Below are positions 6,116 through 26,238 of a stretch of DNA of 26,238 bases, one piece after another. The DNA is from Candidatus Micrarchaeum sp. GTDB taxonomy: Archaea; SpSt-1190; DYHY01. The notes below the pieces were generated by a model. It made no database searches. It was not told the origin of the DNA and saw only the letters and a list, made by a program, of their open reading frames with translations. Both the position numbers and the translations under genes were made by a program. The DNA lies in NCBI GenBank assembly GCA_020723935.1, contig DYHY01000009.1:21955-48192 (forward strand), read 5' to 3'. The stretch's first letter is position 1. Every line of letters starts with the position of its first letter.

Positions 6116-7156
6116 TCAGACCCAGCCGGAAAGGTCCTTCTGCCTTCCGGCCTCCTTCCTCCTCTCCTCGAGGGCTTTGAGGGTCCCGCCGATCCTCTCC
6201 CGCGAGAACTGGTGCTTCTCGCACAGGATTTCCATCGCCTTCCCCGGGTCGGGCTCCCCGAACTCCGGGCGCGCCTTCTCGTCGACGGCCGGCTTCCTGA
6301 AGAGCTCCATCAGCTCGCCAGGAGTCGCGCCCGCGGTCCATCTCTCCGAAACGGATTCGAAAGCCTCATTGACCGAGCCCTTCCTCAGCAGGGCGAGGGC
6401 CTTCTTGGGGCCTATCCCCCTTATCCCGCCGGGGTTGTAGTCCGTCCCCACGAGGATTCCGAGGGCGATGAGCTTGTCCTGGGTGATTCCCAGGCCCGAA
6501 AGGACGGCCCGCAGGTCTATGATCTCCGTCGGGACCTCGACGTGCAGGGATTTCCCCGGAATCTTGCGCTTGTTCGTCACCCCCAGGTTCCTCACCAGGG
6601 CCGGCGAGCCGAAGAGGAGGGAATCGTAATCCTGGCTCGCGGCGTAGTCCGCCCTGCCCTCCCTGCACATCCAGGCGGCCTGTGCCTCGCCCTCGGCGGC
6701 GGCGTCAATCGTCGGGATCCCCAAGGAGCGCAGGAGCGCCTTGGCCTCGGCGACCATCTCGGTAGTCAGGCGGCTCGTCGCCTGGGCGTATTTCCTCGCC
6801 GATTCGATGTCCCCTTCCTCGAGGGCTTCCTCATACTTCTCCTCGGCCGCCCGCTTGGTCTCCTCGCGCTTCATTATCGTCTCCTTCTTGCCTGCGGGGG
6901 GCTTGCCGTCGAAGACGTACGCGACGCGGACTCTTGCCTCCAGGAGCCTGCAGTTCCTGGAGAAAATCCCCGACAGATGGCTCGTCACCCTGCCCGCGGA
7001 ATCCATCAGCGGCGTCCCGTCCGCCTGCCTTATTGTCGAGAGGAACTGGTAGATGGCGTTGAAGGCGTCCACCGCGACGATCTTGCCGGCAAACTCGTCT
7101 ATCGAGCACGCGCGCACGGCCTCCTGCGGGATTATCTCGCGCATCTGGACGCCCAT
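6116..7156 (-). CDS. fen: Flap endonuclease FEN-1
   Basis: Structure-specific 5' flap endonuclease used in Okazaki fragment maturation and base excision repair. The 346 residues are normal for archaea. Acidic metal ligands are all present: D30 (AVDAFNAIYQ), D83 (VFDGKPP), E155 and E157 (AEGEAQA), D176 and D178 (SQDYDSLLFG) and D239 (VGTDYNPGG). The helix-two-turn-helix follows as GIRGIGPKKAL. The C-terminus QKDLSGWV fits a PCNA-interacting box (Q-x-x-L-x-x-W), with Val instead of the usual Phe at the end. The ATG at 7156 is about 24-30 bp downstream of CTATAAAA, a box shared with the divergent gene. Start MGVQ matches the family. Confidence 0.96.
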   Translation of the reverse strand: MGVQMREIIPQEAVRACSIDEFAGKIVAVDAFNAIYQFLSTIRQADGTPLMDSAGRVTSHLSGIFSRNCRLLEARVRVAYVFDGKPPAGKKETIMKREETKRAAEEKYEEALEEGDIESARKYAQATSRLTTEMVAEAKALLRSLGIPTIDAAAEGEAQAAWMCREGRADYAASQDYDSLLFGSPALVRNLGVTNKRKIPGKSLHVEVPTEIIDLRAVLSGLGITQDKLIALGILVGTDYNPGGIRGIGPKKALALLRKGSVNEAFESVSERWTAGATPGELMELFRKPAVDEKARPEFGEPDPGKAMEILCEKHQFSRERIGGTLKALEERRKEAGRQKDLSGWV

Positions 7157-7179
7157 AACCCACGCACGCGCGCAAAAGG

Positions 7180-7187
7180 TTTTATAG
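7180..7187. promoter_or_regulatory. One TATA element serving two divergent genes
   Basis: TTTTATAG on the plus strand reads CTATAAAA on the minus strand. The two start codons (7156 minus, 7212 plus) lie symmetrically about its centre near 7184, each about 28 bp away. No second TATA-like box is seen between the genes, so both leaderless transcripts probably use this one element. Confidence 0.6.
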
Positions 7188-7211
7188 CCTTTTTCCGGGT
7201 TGCATGCGCAA

Positions 7212-7490
7212 ATGGCCGAAAACAGCGCGGGCGCGCCGGGACACGCTGAGCAGCCCCAGCCCCGTCACGATTCCCGTCACGAGCACGATCACGGAGCGGG
7301 CCGGAGGAAGCCCGCCTTCTCCAAGAAGGAGCGGCTGCTCCTGGGGATAATCGCGGCGATAGCGATAGTGTGGGTCGCCGTAGGCATATGGAAGTGGGGC
7401 TACGTCTACTGGCCGGCCCTCGCCGGCGCGTTTTCGATCCCGTTCCTCCTCGCTGCCCTCTTCGTCGACAACATCCCGATGGCCGAATAG
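7212..7490 (+). CDS. Small two-helix membrane protein with a His-rich N-terminus
   Basis: 92 residues. Residues 1-40 are hydrophilic, with several His residues (HDSRHEHDHG) that might bind metal. Two hydrophobic segments follow at about 42-64 and 68-87. No family is recognised. ATG 7212 is preferred to an in-frame TTG at 7200 because it sits about 28 bp from the shared TATA element. It is divergent from FEN-1 and lies 35 bp before the beta-CASP nuclease gene. Confidence 0.65.
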   Translation: MAENSAGAPGHAEQPQPRHDSRHEHDHGAGRRKPAFSKKERLLLGIIAAIAIVWVAVGIWKWGYVYWPALAGAFSIPFLLAALFVDNIPMAE

Positions 7491-7525
7491 CCCGGCGCAT
7501 TCAGCCTTTCATTTCACGCTAAAAA

Positions 7526-8521
7526 ATGCTGAAAATCTCCGCGGGAGGCGGCGTCGGCTTCAGGCTTGAGTCCGGCGGCCTCGACTTCCTCCTCGATCCC
7601 CAGCGCGCGTCGGGGCCGTTCGTGCTGTCGCACGCGCACACCGACCACCTGCCCTCAGCCGTGCGATCACCCGCGATCGCATCGAGGGAGACGATCGCCT
7701 TCGCCAAGGCGCGCACGGGCCTCGCGATCCAAAGCGCGCAGGTCCCGGCCCAGGTTTCTCTGCACGACGCCGGCCACATGATAGGCTCCAGGATGGCCGA
7801 GATCCGAACGGATTCCGGCACCGTCCTCTACACAGGTGACTTCAACACGCGCGACCGGCTCTTCCTCTCCGGCGCGAAGCACGTGAAATGCGACGTCCTG
7901 ATACTGGACACAACCTACGCGTCCAGCAGCTACGCCTTCCCGAGGATGGCGGATCTCACGCGCGAGGTGCGCGACTTCGTCTCCGACTCCGGGGGGCGGG
8001 CCATATTCTACGGCTATTCCTACGGCAAGGCGCAGATCCTCACGCGCCTCGCAAGCGACCTGGGGCTCCCCGTCCTCGCGCAGGCGGAGGTCTACGGGGC
8101 GAACGTCCTCGCCTCCTCCTTCGGCCACGACCTCGGGAAGTTCTCCCTCTTCGGCGGGGACGGGACAGGGAGGATCCTCGCGTCGAAGGACCCCGCGATC
8201 GTTGTCGCGCCCGGCTCAGCCTCCCACACGCTCCTCGCGCAGAAGCTTGAGCGCGCGGGCTTCGCGAGCGCCGTCTTCACTGGCTGGGTCGCCTCGGGCG
8301 GCAGGCGCGCCTCCGGGCCGCATCACGTGAAGGGCGAGGGCGCCTTCTGCCTCTCGGACCATTCAGACTTCCAGGGGCTCCTTGACTTCGTCAGGGGGTG
8401 CGACCCGAGGGAGGTGATAATAGCGCACGCGAAGCCGGAAAGCGACCTCCCGGCGGCGCTCAAGTCCATAGGCTTCCCGTCGCACGTTTGCGTACGCGGG
8501 AAGACCTTCACTTTCGTATAG
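7526..8521 (+). CDS. Metallo-beta-lactamase/beta-CASP nuclease
   Basis: 331-residue metal-dependent hydrolase of the beta-CASP group that acts on RNA or DNA ends. Seen: SHAHTDH with H36, H38, D40 and H41; H84 in DAGHMIGS; D105 in YTGDFN; motif A-like D128 in LDTTYA; and late motifs SDHSDF (277-282) and IIAHAKPE (H301). All di-zinc ligands are present. It lacks the KH domains of the long archaeal CPSF homologues. Its length is nearer the SNM1-like or ligase-associated exonucleases, so the substrate (RNA 3'-end processing or DNA end resection) is open. The ATG overlaps an A-run and no clear TATA box is seen, so it may share a transcript with the upstream membrane gene. Confidence 0.85.
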   Translation: MLKISAGGGVGFRLESGGLDFLLDPQRASGPFVLSHAHTDHLPSAVRSPAIASRETIAFAKARTGLAIQSAQVPAQVSLHDAGHMIGSRMAEIRTDSGTVLYTGDFNTRDRLFLSGAKHVKCDVLILDTTYASSSYAFPRMADLTREVRDFVSDSGGRAIFYGYSYGKAQILTRLASDLGLPVLAQAEVYGANVLASSFGHDLGKFSLFGGDGTGRILASKDPAIVVAPGSASHTLLAQKLERAGFASAVFTGWVASGGRRASGPHHVKGEGAFCLSDHSDFQGLLDFVRGCDPREVIIAHAKPESDLPAALKSIGFPSHVCVRGKTFTFV

Positions 8522-8558: not shown

Positions 8559-9242
8559 ATGCAGGAGCTGATGGCGGTCAAGGCGCAGATGGAGGACAAT
8601 GAGGAGGAGCAGAGGCGGCGCGACGCCGGGCCCTACACTTTCCCGCCCATGAAGAGCAGGGCGATAATGAAGACGACCGTATTCAACGGCGAGGACGCCC
8701 ACGGGGACACGGAGCAGCTGATGTTCGCATACCTCGTCTTCCCGACGGAAGAGGAGGACAAGGCGAAGATAGCGGAGGCGATAATCAATACGGTGGACAA
8801 CTTCCGCTTCTACCACAAGTACACCGTTCCGGGCACGGAGGACCTAGCGCTAGGCCTTGATGAGGTGGTGAACCCCGCCAAGAGCTACTAGGAGATGATG
8901 TTCTACCTCATTCCGCACGACCTGCCCAAGGGGCCGGCGATGCTGGTGGGGACGGACGGCAAGACGTTCCTCGTCGGGAAAAAGATCGGCTGCGCGCGGC
9001 TCGAGCTCGACAAGGGATACGCGATACACGGCACCGACGGGGGCGACACCCGGGGCGTCTGCAACTGCTTGGCGAAGGCCGTCAGGGGGGAGCCCCTCTC
9101 GGTCGAGAACGCCGCTAAGATAGCTGTCACGGCGCTGCAGGAGGGGCTTGCGGGGAACGACACGTTCAATAAGGAGAACCTCCACATTGTCCTCGTCGAC
9201 TCGACGGGAGTGAGGGATTACTCCTTCCCCGGGTTCGCCTGA
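8559..9242 (+). CDS. Proteasome-fold-like protein split by an in-frame TAG
   Basis: Two parts in the same frame, 110 residues (8559-8891) and 115 residues (8895-9242), separated by a TAG at 8889-8891. Read through, they align with the partner protein at 10344-11294. YLVFPTEEEDKAKIAEAI matches IVFIPFGDLDEEKASNLI, and AMLVGTDGK matches ALFVGQDGQ. The second part ends with SVENAAKIAVTALQEG and LHIVLVDSTG, the helix-strand pattern of the C-terminal half of proteasome alpha/beta subunits. The N-terminal strands of that fold, and any catalytic Thr, are missing. GGAG stands just before the first ATG, and a GAG codon separates the TAG from an ATG ATG, so two separate polypeptides are also possible. 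Otherwise it is a nonsense mutation, suppression or a base error. Confidence 0.6.
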
Positions 9243-9268
9243 GGCCCGCCTGAAAGAGGCAAAGGCAG

Positions 9269-9315
9269 GGCCGTGCTCCCGGCGCGGGGCACGGCCACTT
9301 ATTTTTATTTCGGCT
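9269..9315 (+). terminator. Hairpin followed by a T-rich tract
   Basis: GGCCGTGC (9269-9276) pairs perfectly with GCACGGCC (9289-9296), with further GC pairing inside the loop, and is followed by ACTTATTTTTATTT. It lies after the split gene and before the beta-type proteasome promoter, as expected for a transcription terminator. Confidence 0.6.
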
Positions 9316-9398
9316 TTCTTTCCAAAACCGGCCGGAGGTTTTCGTCTCCCTTCGTTGGTGAACTCTGCCGAATTGGCTCCCTTTTGAAATAGTGAAAA

Positions 9399-9406
9399 TT
9401 ATAAAG
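9399..9406 (+). promoter_or_regulatory. TATA box of the proteasome-like pair
   Basis: TTATAAAG preceded by the purine-rich GTGAAAA, a good archaeal BRE/TATA. Transcription would begin near 9430, which argues against the GTG at 9392 as translation start. Confidence 0.55.
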
Positions 9407-9442
9407 GAGCGGCGCACCAGCCTCAACGGGGGACAAAGCAGT

Positions 9443-10342
9443 TTGGCAAGAGCGGTCAACACACTCGATAGTTTGAGCAGACTTCCGGCAAGAGTGGCGG
9501 CTTACGCGGAAATGATAAACAATTTCAGGGGGCCTTCCGAGATATCCCCCGAAGCGATGGAGCTCTTCGAGTGCGAGATCGCGGGCTCCGAGAATGGCAA
9601 CGGCACGCGCCCCAACAACTACATGTACACCCTCAAGAACGGCCGCGCCATCCACACGGGAACGGTCATCGGCGCGATAACCTACGGCGCCGGATCGCTC
9701 GACAGGGGCGTCGTCATCGGCGGCGACAGGCAGACGAGCCTGGGCAACCAGTGGGCGTACAACAACAACACGAAGAAGGTCAAGAGCTACGGGATCTTCG
9801 CGGTCGCGTCGACCGGCCTGTGCTCGGCGATAGAAGTCACACACTTCATAATAGCGGACTCCGCCATGCGCTTCAAGAACGAGTACAACAGGGACGTGTG
9901 CAGAGAGGAGGACAAGTTCCTGATGGACGTGACGCGCGCGGCGGGCCTCCTCTACTCCCTGGGGAACACCGACGTCGGCGCCGAGGCCGGCCACATCGTC
10001 GCGGGCGTGAGCCCCGAGAACATTCCCCTCATCTACGACATCGACGGGCGTTACATTGTGGCCCAGACGAGCCACCTCATGAAAGGCTCGGGATCCGTGT
10101 TCGCCCAGACGGTCCTTGACGAGCACGCGGCGAACACCGGGACGTCGCGCACCAAGGACGACGCGATAGAGAGCCTCATACACGCTCTCTTCGCGGGGGC
10201 GTACCGCGACAACTTCTGCTCGGCCAGGAACGACAACTTCCAGCTAGTTGTCGTCACGCCCAAGGGATGCAAGGAAGTGCCCGAGGACGATGTGATAGCG
10301 ATGGTTGAGCAGTACAGGAAGAAGTTCAGGGGAGTGTCCTGA
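9443..10342 (+). CDS. Proteasome beta-type subunit, catalytic, with long propeptide
   Basis: Ntn-hydrolase of the 20S proteasome beta family. HTG|TVIGAITY supplies the autoprocessing Gly-Thr and catalytic Thr74. The Asp17 equivalent is D95 in IGGDRQTS, the Lys33 equivalent is in NNTKKVKSYG, the SGS loop is KGSGSVFAQ, and the Asp166 equivalent is YRDNFCS, with Cys where Ser169 usually sits. About five extra residues lie between the first two strands. The pre-Thr segment is about 73 residues here, longer than usual for archaea. The start is uncertain: TTG 9443 fits the TATA box at 9399; GTG 9392 overlaps that promoter region; ATG 9512 would leave 50 residues. It is followed after 1 bp by a second proteasome-fold gene. 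Partner alpha subunits are not in the window. Confidence 0.85.
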   Translation: MARAVNTLDSLSRLPARVAAYAEMINNFRGPSEISPEAMELFECEIAGSENGNGTRPNNYMYTLKNGRAIHTGTVIGAITYGAGSLDRGVVIGGDRQTSLGNQWAYNNNTKKVKSYGIFAVASTGLCSAIEVTHFIIADSAMRFKNEYNRDVCREEDKFLMDVTRAAGLLYSLGNTDVGAEAGHIVAGVSPENIPLIYDIDGRYIVAQTSHLMKGSGSVFAQTVLDEHAANTGTSRTKDDAIESLIHALFAGAYRDNFCSARNDNFQLVVVTPKGCKEVPEDDVIAMVEQYRKKFRGVS

Positions 10343-10343
10343 A

Positions 10344-11294
10344 ATGGCGGGCAAAGTGTCCATAAGCCAAGAGGACCTCGGGATGGAGGACGCGGAACCG
10401 AGCGACTACTCCGTGATAGGCGGGGCCATACGGACCGCCGAAGGGGGCGTCCTCGTCTTCTCTTACACGCACCCCGTTTACAGGGAGGCCCTCGAGAAGG
10501 TCGAGGGGAATTTCCTGAACGTGCGCGCGGTGGCGAACCGCCAGATAGGGGAGGAAGAAGATGTGGTGGGTGGGCTCCACCCCTCGGAGGTGAACGCCAT
10601 CAGGACGCAGATAAGCCGCGAGGAGGACAAGCTCGACAGCCTGCGCAGCAACGCGATGTACCCCACGCCGGAGCCCTCGCACATAGACGTGAGGACGATC
10701 TACGACCACGAATACCCGGGCCTCGGCAGGATGGTCAGGAAGCTTGCCATCGTCTTCATACCCTTCGGGGACCTGGACGAGGAGAAGGCTTCCAACCTCA
10801 TTTCCGACACGATAACAGAGATCACCTGGGGCCTGCAGGACGCTGTCCCGCGCACAATGGAGGTCGCGAAATCGTTCGCGGATGCTTCTAGCGAGATGGA
10901 CCCTTACGAAAGGAACATCGGATACGCCCTGGCGAAGAACTCGCCGAAAGCTGACGCGCTGTTCGTCGGCCAGGACGGGCAAATATGCACTGTGAAGCAC
11001 AACAAGCCCTTCCTCCAGCACAGGGGGCCCTACGCGGTCGTCGGGCGGACATTCGAGGTCAAGGCGATCGCGCCCAAACTCAAGAAATACTATCCGGGCG
11101 ACGGCGTGCCCTCGGACAGCAACGCGGCGACGATGGCGATACAGATCCTCAAGGAAACCTTCGGCGACGAGTTCAAGTACGCGAACCTCGGGATGGCTTT
11201 CGTCCACCCTGACAGGATAGAGAGAATACAGAACCTCCAGAAGTACGGCAAGGGGACCAAGGCTGACCCTGCACCGGGAATTCGGGAACGTTGA
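10344..11294 (+). CDS. Divergent, apparently non-catalytic proteasome-fold partner
   Basis: A 316-residue protein whose ATG is 1 bp after the beta-type stop. N-terminal YSVIGGAIRTAEGGVLVFSY (22-41) matches the first two strands of the beta subunit. Ser23 stands at the Thr1 position, Ser or Tyr at the Asp17 position, and the Lys33 region is replaced. A long central insertion with charged helices follows (about 45-185). The C-terminal part (KADALFVGQDGQ, YAVVGRTFEVKAIAPKLKKY, AATMAIQILKETFG, YANLGMAFVHPD) follows the second half of the proteasome fold. It is therefore probably a structural or regulatory subunit rather than a protease. It lacks the usual alpha-subunit N-terminal helix signature. 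It resembles the split gene at 8559-9242. The family assignment is by pattern and needs a profile search. Confidence 0.6.
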   Translation: MAGKVSISQEDLGMEDAEPSDYSVIGGAIRTAEGGVLVFSYTHPVYREALEKVEGNFLNVRAVANRQIGEEEDVVGGLHPSEVNAIRTQISREEDKLDSLRSNAMYPTPEPSHIDVRTIYDHEYPGLGRMVRKLAIVFIPFGDLDEEKASNLISDTITEITWGLQDAVPRTMEVAKSFADASSEMDPYERNIGYALAKNSPKADALFVGQDGQICTVKHNKPFLQHRGPYAVVGRTFEVKAIAPKLKKYYPGDGVPSDSNAATMAIQILKETFGDEFKYANLGMAFVHPDRIERIQNLQKYGKGTKADPAPGIRER

Positions 11295-11364: not shown

Positions 11365-12594
11365 ATGCCGGCCGAACGCCTCTACCTGGAAGACCCCTAC
11401 CTCAAGGAGTGGCTCGCTACAGTCACGGGCGTGAAGAAGTTCTCGGGCAAGACCCTCGTCACGCTCGACAGGACCGCCTTCCATCCGCAGGGGGGCGGGC
11501 AGCCGGGCGACCGCGGGACGATCGGGGGCCTTGCGATCGTCGACACGTTCGTCCACGACGGGGAGGTGATACACGAGCTCTCCGAGGGGGCCGACCCGCC
11601 CTTCGGCGAGGTCGAATGCGCGATCGACTGGTCCTTCCGCGAGCCGCTCATGCGCCTGCACACGGGCGAGCATCTGCTGTTCTCCTGCCTCAAGGCCCTC
11701 AAGCCGGACCTTGAGGTGGACAAGGTCCTCTTCTCCCTGGAGGGGGGGAAGCTCTTCGTCTCGGGCTCCGACCTCTCCTTCGAGGACGTCTCCTCCGCCG
11801 AGGAGCGCGCTAACTCCCTGATAGCCTCCGGCGTCCCCGTGAGGAGCCATTTCTTCGACGGGGTCGAGGCCGCCAAGGCGGCGCTCCCCCAGGCGCGCCT
11901 CAAGGAGGAGCGCGTCTCGGGCAGGATCAGGATACTTGAGATAGAGGGCACTGACTATTCGGCCTGCTCAGGAACGCACCTCCGCAACACGAAGGAAATC
12001 GGGTTCCTTAAGATCCTCTGGGTGAACAGGAACGGCGGGGCGACGGAGCTCACATTCGGAGCCGGCGAGCAGGCGGTCATGCGCACGAGGGAGCTCGCGA
12101 ACAAGGTGGTTGAGGCGGGCCTCGCGCTCCAGGTGGAGCCCGAGAAGGTGGTCCCGACGATACTCAACGCCCGCGCCGAGAACCTGCGCCTGAGGCAGAC
12201 GGTGCGCGCCCTCTCCAAGGAGGTGCTCAAGGGGGCCAAGGCGTCGGTAGCGCCGGAGAAGCTGGGGGGCGTGCGCGCGTACGTTGCGTCCTTCGACGGG
12301 CTCATCGACAGGCAGGACCTCTCGGAGCTCGCAAACCACTTCGTGAAGAAGGGGACTTGCGTCGCCGTGCTGTTCGGAGGATTGGATCCTGAGTTCTCGT
12401 CCCTCGTCCTTGCGGCTTCCGGGGATTTCCGAGGCGACCTCAACAAGCTCGCCGCGAGAATCCTCCCGCTCGTGGGCGGGCGCGGAGGGGGCAGGCCCCT
12501 CTTCGTCAGCGCCGCCTGCAGGGAGCGGGGGAAGATCCCCGCGGCCCTTTCGGCCGCCCGTGACTGGCTCGCTTCTATTTCTCCTTCATCTTAG
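11365..12594 (+). CDS. alaX: Alanyl-tRNA editing protein AlaX, long form
   Basis: Free-standing editing protein that removes Ser or Gly mischarged on tRNA-Ala. Seen: PQGGGQPGD (41-49), zinc/catalytic motif HTGEH (H99, H103) and the second ligand pair CSGTH (C201, H205), all as in AlaRS editing domains. The C-terminal part (about 290-409) ends with GGRGGGRPLFVSA, the DHHA1 oligomerisation or RNA-binding domain, so this is the long AlaX type. It has 409 residues. AATAATAAGG about 28 bp upstream of the ATG is a TATA-like box. Its 3' end overlaps by 20 bp the convergent gene for a secreted repeat protein. Confidence 0.92.
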   Translation: MPAERLYLEDPYLKEWLATVTGVKKFSGKTLVTLDRTAFHPQGGGQPGDRGTIGGLAIVDTFVHDGEVIHELSEGADPPFGEVECAIDWSFREPLMRLHTGEHLLFSCLKALKPDLEVDKVLFSLEGGKLFVSGSDLSFEDVSSAEERANSLIASGVPVRSHFFDGVEAAKAALPQARLKEERVSGRIRILEIEGTDYSACSGTHLRNTKEIGFLKILWVNRNGGATELTFGAGEQAVMRTRELANKVVEAGLALQVEPEKVVPTILNARAENLRLRQTVRALSKEVLKGAKASVAPEKLGGVRAYVASFDGLIDRQDLSELANHFVKKGTCVAVLFGGLDPEFSSLVLAASGDFRGDLNKLAARILPLVGGRGGGRPLFVSAACRERGKIPAALSAARDWLASISPSS

Positions 12595-23128: not shown

Positions 23129-23228
23129 CAGGCTCGTTTCGCGGGGGGTTTTATTAATATTTGCAAGGCGCTCTCTGTCGCAATAACGGGTGATGATTCT
23201 CAAGTCGAATGCAGGTGATAAGGCGGTT

Positions 23229-23866
23229 TTATCCAAATTTTAGCTCTTTCCACTTGCAATATTCACAAGTTCCATTAACTTTAGGCAACTTCCCGTTCAA
23301 GACTTCAGAAGCCTTTTTAAGGGCTTCTTAACTCTTTCTGGATTGGTTTTAACTTTGATAATATTTACTTGAACATCCATTCCATTATGTATCTCGCATT
23401 GTTCTGGATGGTAGTAAGCCAAATATCCAAAATTCTCAGTTTTATAACCATTCATAAGCAACAAGAAAGTATAGCAGTCTAATTGTAATTGATAGCTTGG
23501 ATGGGTTTCTTCGGGAGCTTTGCTTTTTGTTTTATGGTCAAAAGGCACTATTGATTTATTTTCTGTTTGTAAATATTCATCTGGAAGCCCCTTTAGTTTT
23601 ACACCATCGTCATTATCTTCATAGTATAATGTCTTTGGCATATCAAGAGGAAGAACTCCCTTGATTTTCCCTTTAATTAATGGCGGTAAAATCCCTTTCT
23701 TTCTATAAACATCAAAATACTTCTTTATGATAGAATCCATCTTTATTGGAATAGAAGACATTGGTCCAGATGGTCTTCTTACCTTCTTGACAACTTGAAG
23801 ATAAAAGCATCTCGGACACTCTTCAAGAAGGTTCAATGATGATGGTGAGAGTGTATATATTGTCAT
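23229..23866 (-). CDS. Cas4/RecB-like PD-(D/E)XK nuclease (frameshifted near its C-terminus)
   Basis: Nuclease of the RecB/Cas4 group. N-terminal SPSSLNLLEECPRCFYLQ has C17 and C20. Catalytic motifs are GLPDEYL (D96), PFDHKTK (D110, K112) and YQLQLDCY. As sequenced it stops at 23297 after 189 residues. In the -1 frame the sequence continues ASEVLNGKLPKVNGTCEYC then KWKELKFG to a stop at 23229. This is the typical C-terminal Cys region of the family. One extra A in the five-base run at 23314-23318 restores 212 residues. Two N-terminal and two C-terminal cysteines could hold an iron-sulfur cluster or zinc. No cas genes or CRISPR array are in the window, so a role in CRISPR adaptation is not supported. 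AT-rich, unlike the chromosome to its left. Confidence 0.75.
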
Positions 23867-23867
23867 T

Positions 23868-24077
23868 CTAATCCTTCCTTATAAACGGATCAATCTTTAA
23901 TCCAATTAATGCGTTAGTAGCCAATTTTGTTCCAACACGCAAATCATAAAGATACCCTTCTTTCAATAATTGATTGAATAGGAAATGCAATACAAACGAC
24001 ATAGCATTTTCATTTAAGTCTCTTCCAAAATCTTGTAGAATAAATCGTATTTTGCTGCTAAGATAACCTAAATACAA
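23868..24077 (-). CDS. Unknown small protein, possibly the C-terminal part of the gene before it
   Basis: 69 residues from a weak TTG start (…RFILQDFGRDLNENAMSF…). It overlaps the end of the gene at 24068-24433 in the -1 frame and stops 1 bp before the nuclease ATG. Adding one base near the GGG or TTT run (about 24078-24084) would fuse it to that gene as a single protein of 188 residues. No family is recognised. Confidence 0.4.
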   Translation of the reverse strand: MYLGYLSSKIRFILQDFGRDLNENAMSFVLHFLFNQLLKEGYLYDLRVGTKLATNALIGLKIDPFIRKD

Positions 24078-24433
24078 ATCCCTTCATAAGTATCTGGCTT
24101 GGGATCCGTTTTTACTTGTTCAAATCTAGGATTGTTTTGATTGTTATGTAGAATATTTTTATTATTGGTTGTATCTTTTACAAATTGCTCAAGATCACTG
24201 AGAAAGACTTCATTTTTCTTCCATAAAAATAGTTTATAATGGTGTGTGTTAAGTGTGTATTTCCTGTAAGATTTGTGTAGCAAAGAAAGAACCATCCATT
24301 TATTTATCATCAATTTTAGAAATTTCTTATCAAAACTTTCTTTTAGTTCTTTTAATCTATTTGGGTCATCAACATAGATATAGGACACTAACCAATTATT
24401 ACCATCCAATTTTGATAAATCATTTACGATCAT
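24068..24433 (-). CDS. Unknown AT-rich island protein
   Basis: 121 residues, mostly alpha-helical by pattern and rich in Lys, Asn and Leu. It starts MIVNDLSKLDGNNWLVSYIY and ends DPKPDTYEGICI. It has no signal, membrane segment or motif that I recognise. It lies 18 bp downstream of the PIN toxin gene and may belong to the same transcript. The end may be false (see the 23868-24077 entry): a one-base correction would extend it to 188 residues. Confidence 0.5.
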   Translation of the reverse strand: MIVNDLSKLDGNNWLVSYIYVDDPNRLKELKESFDKKFLKLMINKWMVLSLLHKSYRKYTLNTHHYKLFLWKKNEVFLSDLEQFVKDTTNNKNILHNNQNNPRFEQVKTDPKPDTYEGICI

Positions 24434-24451
24434 TTCAATTTCCCCGCGATT

Positions 24452-24943
24452 TTAAAATTTCCATCCTTCTATTCTGAACATATCTAAGCTGTTAATTGCC
24501 TCTATGTTGTATTTTTGACAGACTAAAGGTATTCTAACTTTATCCCCTCTTAGTTTTTCTTCTGTAACAACTATTCTTTTAATTGGTGTCAGTGTTTGTT
24601 GTGAGCTTGGTGCCATTTCAATAGCCAACGCAATAACCCACGAATCTGCATCGTGTTTTCTATCTTCCTTTACTAAAGACGGATAATTCTTCAATAAATC
24701 TTTCAAGATCTCTATCTGTTTCTCGCTTGGTTCTCGAAAAAACTTGTTCTGTTTTTTAGCCCACTTAGCCAATTGGTCATCTCCTTCTACTATTTCATAA
24801 AGAACTTCTTTGGGAGCCACTAAAAGCCCTTTGCCAATTAACGATTCCATATTCTTCCATAAACTCGGAAACACATCGATTGGATTATGCCTGTTTAGTT
24901 CAATCAGTGATGATGAATCTATGATATAGTGATTTGAAGTCAT
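24452..24943 (-). CDS. PIN-domain toxin, DUF4411 type
   Basis: 163 residues. PIN-domain acidic residues are visible: D9 in YIIDSSSLIEL, E46/E50 in PKEVLYEIVEG, and D98/D100 in KHDADSWVIALA. The HDADSWVIA signature and length fit DUF4411, small PIN-like proteins found beside ImmA/IrrE antitoxins. The expected activity is a metal-dependent RNase. Its ATG overlaps the antitoxin stop by 4 bp (ATGA), so the two are translationally coupled with the antitoxin gene first. AT-rich, as is the rest of the island. Confidence 0.82.
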   Translation of the reverse strand: MTSNHYIIDSSSLIELNRHNPIDVFPSLWKNMESLIGKGLLVAPKEVLYEIVEGDDQLAKWAKKQNKFFREPSEKQIEILKDLLKNYPSLVKEDRKHDADSWVIALAIEMAPSSQQTLTPIKRIVVTEEKLRGDKVRIPLVCQKYNIEAINSLDMFRIEGWKF

Positions 24944-26091
24944 TTTTTCGCCTTCGCTAGAACCTTCTCGAAGTTCTTTGATTTAATTGACAAATAGCTC
25001 AAAGCATCTGTATAAGTTATTAAATTCTTGTCAAAATTATTCGCAACAAGAGAAATGAATTTGTTACCCATTTCAGAAAGACATTTCTTATCAGAAGCTA
25101 CAATTATTCCTTTCTTTTCACGTTCAATTTTCTTCTTTGTTTCTTTTGGAATATACCGCTTGACAACATTCTCGAATTCTTGTCTTGAAATATAATTAAG
25201 ATTCGACATCTTGACTAGAAGCGCAGCCTTGCTCACTTTATACCTCTTTGATAAGGTGTTCAGTGTTTCTGTATCAACCAAAGTGGCTCGTCTTTCTTCA
25301 AACAACTCTTTTGCTTTTTCTGTTGGAAGTAAAAATGATGACGAAAATGCATTGCACCATCTTTCAATATTATCTCTGACTGTTAGAGATGCTTCTGGAA
25401 TGTCTATTACCGTTTCTCCAAGAAGTACGTGTCCAAATTCATGCATAAGGGAGAATATCCTTGCTTCTATACTGTCTTTTGAATTGATAACAATAATTGC
25501 TGGGGATTCATCAGCTAATGCAAAGCCTCTTGCATCTTCGATAGGCATAGAGAATTGAAAAACCAAAACATTCGTATCTTCAAGAATATCCCTTAGATAA
25601 TTAAAGAGCTTGTAAGCATCTCTGAATTTTCTTTGTTTTTCCCATTCAAGATTAAACAATTTCCTATACTTTTCTGCAATTAAATCAGGATTTTGAGACA
25701 GGTTAACTTTCTCTACTTTTGTTTTGGTTTCATACCTTACATTTAATGAAAGCTCTTTGCCTATGTTTTGCAGGCTTCTTGACCTTCTTATTGCCAGAAT
25801 GGTTTTTTTATCAAATATTCCTGTCTTATTCGGAAGGAATCTGTAGTCTTTTGGTAAGGGTTTTTCTTCTTTCGGTTTTGACAAAAAGAATGATGCTAAT
25901 GGACGCTTAAATAATACAGATAAAATCTTTAATTGTTTTAATGAAGGTGACTTCTTTCCGGATTCAAAATCTGTTATAGTTTCAACATTAGTATCCAATT
26001 TCTTGCTTACTTCTTCTATCTTCCATCCAGAACTTTCCCTAAACCATTTTAGTACTTCTGGATTTATCTCGACAGTTATTAATTTGACCAT
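24940..26091 (-). CDS. XRE-family ImmA/IrrE metallopeptidase antitoxin
   Basis: 383 residues. An N-terminal XRE helix-turn-helix (about 12-65, SSGWKIEEVSKKLDTNVETI, then ESGKKSPSLKQLKILSVL) is joined to an M78-type zinc peptidase with HEFGH at 217-221 and a probable third ligand E243. Such proteins repress their own operon and control a partner toxin, here the DUF4411 PIN protein coupled by a 4-bp overlap. The C-terminal 120 residues include a helical segment common in this subfamily. The ATG at 26091 lies only about 34 bp from the end of an IS3-like element, which may have replaced or created its promoter. Confidence 0.88.
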   Translation of the reverse strand: MVKLITVEINPEVLKWFRESSGWKIEEVSKKLDTNVETITDFESGKKSPSLKQLKILSVLFKRPLASFFLSKPKEEKPLPKDYRFLPNKTGIFDKKTILAIRRSRSLQNIGKELSLNVRYETKTKVEKVNLSQNPDLIAEKYRKLFNLEWEKQRKFRDAYKLFNYLRDILEDTNVLVFQFSMPIEDARGFALADESPAIIVINSKDSIEARIFSLMHEFGHVLLGETVIDIPEASLTVRDNIERWCNAFSSSFLLPTEKAKELFEERRATLVDTETLNTLSKRYKVSKAALLVKMSNLNYISRQEFENVVKRYIPKETKKKIEREKKGIIVASDKKCLSEMGNKFISLVANNFDKNLITYTDALSYLSIKSKNFEKVLAKAKK

Positions 26092-26095
26092 TATA

Positions 26096-26238
26096 TCAGA
26101 CTCTCTTCAATGATGGAAATTTTCTGGACTGCACCCCTGTTTTTGGACTACAAGTTAGCGAATATTTAATGCCTCCGTTTCCATAGCGAATATTTAATGC
26201 CTCCGTTTCCATTTCATTTGGGGTTTTGTACCTGATGG
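26096..26238 (-). CDS. Partial transposase C-terminus, altered by a tandem duplication
   Basis: Only the last codons are in view. The frame starts beyond 26238 and encodes IRYKTPNEMETEALNIR. Without the second 28-bp unit it would stop at the TAA at 26155-26157. With the duplication (28 is not a multiple of 3) the frame shifts and runs on to a TGA at 26096-26098, outside the element and just before the antitoxin gene. Catalytic residues are beyond the window. Confidence 0.5.
   Translation of the reverse strand, partial: IRYKTPNEMETEALNIRYGNGGIKYSLTCSPKTGVQSRKFPSLKRV
26125..26238 (-). mobile_element. End of an IS3-like insertion sequence, cut by the window edge
   Basis: The terminal sequence TGGACTGCACCCC at 26125-26137 resembles IS3-family inverted-repeat ends. 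Reading in from the window edge on the minus strand gives RYKTPNEMETEALNIR, the usual C-terminus of an IS3-type DDE transposase (…TPNE…). The other end and the target-site repeats are outside the window. Confidence 0.6.
26157..26212. repeat. Two perfect 28-bp tandem units
   Basis: 26157-26184 and 26185-26212 are identical and adjacent. Each begins AGCGAATATTTAATG and ends CCGTTTCCAT. They lie inside the transposase C-terminal region. A slipped-strand duplication or an assembly artefact would both give this. Confidence 0.9.

Follow-up and report, generated by a model that had tools for sequence, protein, structure and literature searches.

A gene cluster in a draft genome of Candidatus Micrarchaeum sp. 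encodes a protein with the features of a proteasome beta-type subunit, together with two proteins that match no family. Does this cluster encode the ordinary proteasome of the organism, a spare subunit for it, or a separate proteasome-like machine? We analyzed the 26,238-nucleotide stretch of contig DYHY01000009.1 that contains the cluster (the window). Three open reading frames lie on the forward strand in the order P0001, P0002, P0003. See Table 1 for the coordinates of all cluster features. An earlier note, made from the letters of this DNA, had described a beta-type subunit, a 316-residue protein starting 1 bp after it and a shorter upstream relative split by a TAG, and had proposed either a specialized particle or a divergent alpha/beta pair. 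The gene layout was as described, including the 1-bp gap between the stop of P0002 and the start of P0003.

Table 1. Features of the proteasome-like cluster, in window positions
Feature	Position	Strand	Description
P0001	8559..9242	+	Non-catalytic relative of P0003, interrupted by TAG; probably of the proteasome fold, lacking the S1-S2 hairpin
In-frame TAG	8889..8891	+	Breaks the P0001 frame after the predicted H2 helix and before the S5 strand
Terminator-like hairpin	9269..9296	+	Stem of 11 pairs, then a T-rich tract, in the gap from P0001 to P0002; identified by consensus match and fold only
P0002	9512..10342	+	Hyper-divergent proteasome beta-type subunit, 276 aa
P0002 predicted propeptide	9512..9661	+	50 residues ending in IHTG, with Thr1 next; from sequence and alignment, cleavage inferred
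P0003	10344..11294	+	Non-catalytic partner, 316 aa; C-terminal half probably proteasome-fold, N-terminal part helix-rich

The longest frame of P0002 begins at position 9392. However, the coding signal, as judged by codon bias and GC3, is absent from 9392–9511 and strong from about the ATG at 9512, which rules out the upstream start, and the ATG was taken instead. P0002 matches the Pfam Proteasome family (PF00227) at 35.8 bits, above the cut-off of 22.4, and at 37 bits in our genome search. Among curated models it comes closest to the archaeal beta subunit (TIGR03634), at 35.2 bits, far below the equivalog cut-off of 224 bits. Using profiles built from relatives, P0002 scored 49 bits to the archaeal beta profile versus 2.3 bits to the alpha profile, and a search of the PHROGs gave a weak match to an HslV-type PHROG. 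The catalytic set is complete, with Thr1 preceded by Gly, Asp17, Lys33, Gly47, Ser129 and Asp166, and the SGS and RD motifs are kept, which bears out the Thr, Asp, Lys and SGS features recognized in the earlier note. The catalytic positions are among the near-invariant beta columns that P0002 keeps (17/23). When aligned to other beta subunits, P0002 has insertions within the S1-S2 hairpin and near H1-H2; a T. acidophilum beta sequence served as a yardstick in this alignment, and no conclusion depends on it. Counting from the coding-supported start, 50 residues precede Thr1, in the form TG/T. By family and catalytic residues, P0002 is a genuine Ntn peptidase of the proteasome beta type. That it keeps every catalytic residue despite such divergence points to an enzyme that is active and processes itself.

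Next, we searched the genome, a 1.14 Mb draft in 47 contigs that is 91% complete, for the standard proteasome genes. Both were found at full strength on other contigs, the alpha gene on C36 and the beta gene on C1, which rules out P0002 as the sole standard psmB. The P0002 cluster is therefore an additional system. Ordinary alpha and beta genes are present in 10/10 genomes analyzed from the phylum, and among these the divergent third gene occurs in this genome only. No ortholog of P0002 was found in 394 archaeal genomes, where the best matches are ordinary beta subunits at ~26–29% identity. With respect to ATPases, the strong AAA matches in this genome are two domains of a single 794-residue Cdc48-type protein (C6:3979-5568; L076 and L077), and no PAN scored above the cut-off. 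With the double AAA ATPase present and PAN not found, the ordinary proteasome of this organism probably works with Cdc48. Separately, a second proteasome fragment, alpha-like and 185 residues long, is encoded by one relative in the phylum (G006; L057, C46:2759-3250).

In the main rival to a second particle, P0002 would be incorporated as an alternative beta into the ordinary 20S, next to the standard alpha ring, as has been proposed for alternative archaeal betas, and P0003 would serve in assembly or regulation. In archaea it is common for a genome to have two or three alpha or beta subunits, and mixed particles can be made (PMC13022661). P0002 also has a propeptide, a feature reported only for psm-beta and HslV (PMC8665760), and in our tree it groups with the betas and not with the alphas. 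However, P0002 is identical to the organism's own PsmB at just 48 of 206 positions (23%), has the insertions described above, and sits on a branch of 4.68 changes per site versus a median end branch of 0.21. It also falls outside the beta clade of the phylum (support 100/99), a placement that is uncertain because the branch is so long. We consider this rival doubtful, although it deserves to be taken seriously.

We then asked what the neighbors of P0002 are. P0001, read through its TAG, is homologous to P0003 (E = 3.9e-6 in the genome search; 2e-8 by BLASTP), with a match of 26.6 bits that was equaled in none of 3000 shuffles. The homology is present on both sides of the TAG. P0001 read in this way has no detectable homology to P0002. 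Searches of Pfam, NCBIfam, PHROGs and PADLOC returned no match for either protein, and neither hits any Pfam family at E<1, PF00227 included; a single-sequence PDB search with P0003 was likewise empty. Orthologs of P0003 and P0001 were absent from the 394 archaea sampled across families and from two more phyla (156 and 87 genomes), as well as from plasmids, phages, viral contigs and exact-peptide scans of GTDB contigs. We considered a phage or defense link and dropped it, as neither protein matches a PHROG or PADLOC entry. A threonyl-tRNA editing-domain-like protein of one archaeal family gave weak matches (E 4.5e-4 per genome), which we discounted because this is chance level over 394 genomes and no such Pfam match was seen.

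The TAG in P0001 is unlikely to be decoded as pyrrolysine, since TAG is a common stop in the window, ending 10 of the 21 likely genes. GC3 is 0.87 and 0.90 in the two halves of P0001, and coding bias is strong on both sides of the TAG. The break is therefore either recent, or an error of the assembly, or a genuine split in which translation restarts at the ATG at 8895/8898. The terminator-like hairpin that follows P0001 suggests that P0001 and the P0002–P0003 pair are probably separate transcription units. P0003 has the coding bias typical of the genome.

We examined whether P0001 and P0003 share the proteasome fold using four approaches that are individually weak, share input sequences and are not fully independent. 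First, the C-terminal 44 residues of P0001 score 9.3–10.1 bits to beta profiles, a level reached in 0/4000 shuffles. Second, a profile of P0001 and P0003 aligned to the proteasome in register using hhalign with a score of 28.9, compared to a maximum of 21.2 in 60 shuffles, although a reversed-sequence control came close at 25.3 and the outcome depended on settings: the first alignment settings gave nothing and others a modest score. Third, the same profile searched against 177,635 PDB sequences gave a proteasome alpha subunit as its best match, at E 0.15. Fourth, a Foldseek search with the AlphaFold model of P0001, a poor model (pLDDT 37) built from the P0001 and P0003 sequences only, listed proteasome subunits as 50 of the top 50 matches, none with E below 0.026. 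A VIA-align comparison of this model gave Z up to 4.9 over residues 150–227. The AlphaFold model of P0003 is likewise poor (pLDDT 37), to the point of being unusable, and finds no proteasome. Scored by itself against proteasome profiles, P0003 does not rise above its shuffles.

The earlier note held that P0003 keeps the first strands and the C-terminal half of the fold. The first strands did not hold up, as the N-terminal part of P0003 matches S1-S2 no better than shuffles do. The C-terminal half fared better, in that a resemblance is seen there through P0001 and the joint profile, though not from P0003 alone. Taken together, we think it probable, from sequence and predicted structure, that both partners have the proteasome fold, with P0003 placed through its homology to P0001. 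The alternative is that P0003 and P0001 form a small orphan family without this fold that flanks a divergent beta subunit by chance. The empty family searches, the shuffle-level scores of P0003 and the poor models of both proteins would all suit an orphan family; however, the four tests above point to the proteasome in the same register, and we consider this explanation improbable.

If the partners do have the fold, they look beta-like rather than alpha-like. P0001 scores 9.3 bits to the beta profile versus 1.1 to the alpha profile of the phylum, and P0003 scores -0.2 bits to the latter. The alpha N-terminal element (GYDR..SPDGRLFQV..YA) was not found on reading P0001, P0002 or P0003. The alpha/beta pair proposed in the earlier note is thus not favored. 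Its proposals as a whole nonetheless point in the right direction, toward an additional system with a catalytically intact P0002 and two partners that are related to each other and probably share the fold.

Gene order in relatives was informative to a limited degree. The P0002–P0003 cluster is known from one genome, and there is no conserved gene order to back the pairing. The cluster is flanked by an MBL-fold nuclease gene (7526–8521) on one side and an AlaX-like editing gene (11365–12594) on the other. In the sister genome G001, from the same family, divergently oriented FEN1 and MBL-nuclease genes (window 6116–8521) are found in the same order, and this synteny runs out within the MBL gene, where the contig ends and the cluster would come next. 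The absence of the cluster from G001 is not conclusive because the contig ends at that very point. The AlaX-like protein directly 3' of the cluster has a tRNA_SAD match and a weak DHHA1 match, with a full-length homolog in just one further genome of the phylum (G003). Further along the window, GC content drops from ~66% to ~33% near 23.2 kb and stays low through the contig end. This stretch (23200–26238) encodes a PD-(D/E)XK nuclease, a DUF4411 protein, and an HTH plus M78 (IrrE-like) peptidase, and is either the chimeric end of a contig or a horizontally acquired island that possibly holds a toxin-antitoxin pair.

Our preferred reading, on which we are evenly divided, is that the cluster encodes a second, lineage-specific proteasome-like peptidase in which P0002 is the catalytic beta subunit and P0003 an inactive partner, with P0001 a second copy of the partner broken by a stop. 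P0002 would be synthesized with its 50-residue propeptide and cleave itself between Gly and Thr, and the freed Thr1, with Asp17 and Lys33, would cut peptide bonds. P0003 would be translated from the same message, beside P0002. On the model of alpha subunits or of non-catalytic betas, it may act as a dead proteasome-fold subunit that builds or caps an oligomer with P0002, replacing or adding to the standard alpha subunits. P0001 would be a shorter second copy of this inactive partner, transcribed separately and since interrupted by the stop. Autoprocessing, the existence of a complex, its separateness from the 20S particle and what it would cut are all inferred.

A third possibility is that P0002, rather than being a degradative protease, is a specific processing enzyme or ligase of the connectase kind, acting alone or with P0003 as a substrate or specificity partner; connectase, a monomeric ligase, does belong to the proteasome-like proteins (PMC8665760) and one dedicated neighbor could fit a dedicated partner or substrate, but connectase has neither H1-H2 nor a propeptide (PMC8665760) while the P0002 alignment contains the H1-H2 region and lacks the S3-S4 two-helix insertion, making this very unlikely.

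If the second-peptidase reading is true, this cluster would bear on how ringed proteases came to divide catalytic and inactive roles between subunits. It would be an independent case of a division into active and inactive subunits, a natural divergent pair or trio alongside a full ordinary proteasome, in a genome of 1.1 Mb where little room for spare parts is expected. It could also provide a new specific protease or ligase. A stronger form of this reading, which we put forward tentatively, is that the cluster represents an undescribed proteasome-like machine, in which a catalytic beta-type subunit works with dedicated dead proteasome-fold subunits that are neither alpha subunits nor members of any described family, alongside the ordinary 20S in an archaeon with a reduced genome.

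Compared to known systems, P0002 most resembles archaeal PsmB (TIGR03634/PF00227), sharing the Ntn fold, Thr1-Asp17-Lys33, Gly47, SGS, Asp166 and a propeptide with a Gly-Thr junction. Unlike PsmB, it reaches just 35 of 224 bits and 23% identity, has a 50-residue propeptide and insertions at S1-S2 and H1-H2, and is paired with a non-alpha partner. A further 22 proteasome-like families, bacterial and archaeal, were reported by Fuchs et al. 2021, with no informative genomic context (PMC8665760). The proteasome-like families of that study (Anbu, BPH, WPH, PHI, ACC, PMI and connectase) are, like P0002, divergent extras found beside a normal proteasome, often lineage-restricted and with no dedicated AAA+ neighbor. 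They are, however, described as lacking propeptides, whereas P0002 has one and lies next to a relative that is probably inactive; neither feature that marks connectase, the S3-S4 two-helix insertion or the absence of H1-H2, is seen in the P0002 alignment. The beta ring of the eukaryotic 20S brings catalytic and non-catalytic beta subunits together in a single particle (PMC13022661), a precedent for the combination proposed here. Unlike the eukaryotic particle, the present case involves a set of two or three divergent genes carried by an archaeal genome of 1.1 Mb, and common ancestry with the eukaryotic non-catalytic subunits is unsupported. Extra divergent homologs beside a proteasome are thus already known, and P0002, with its propeptide and its adjacent, probably dead relative, is a new variant among them.
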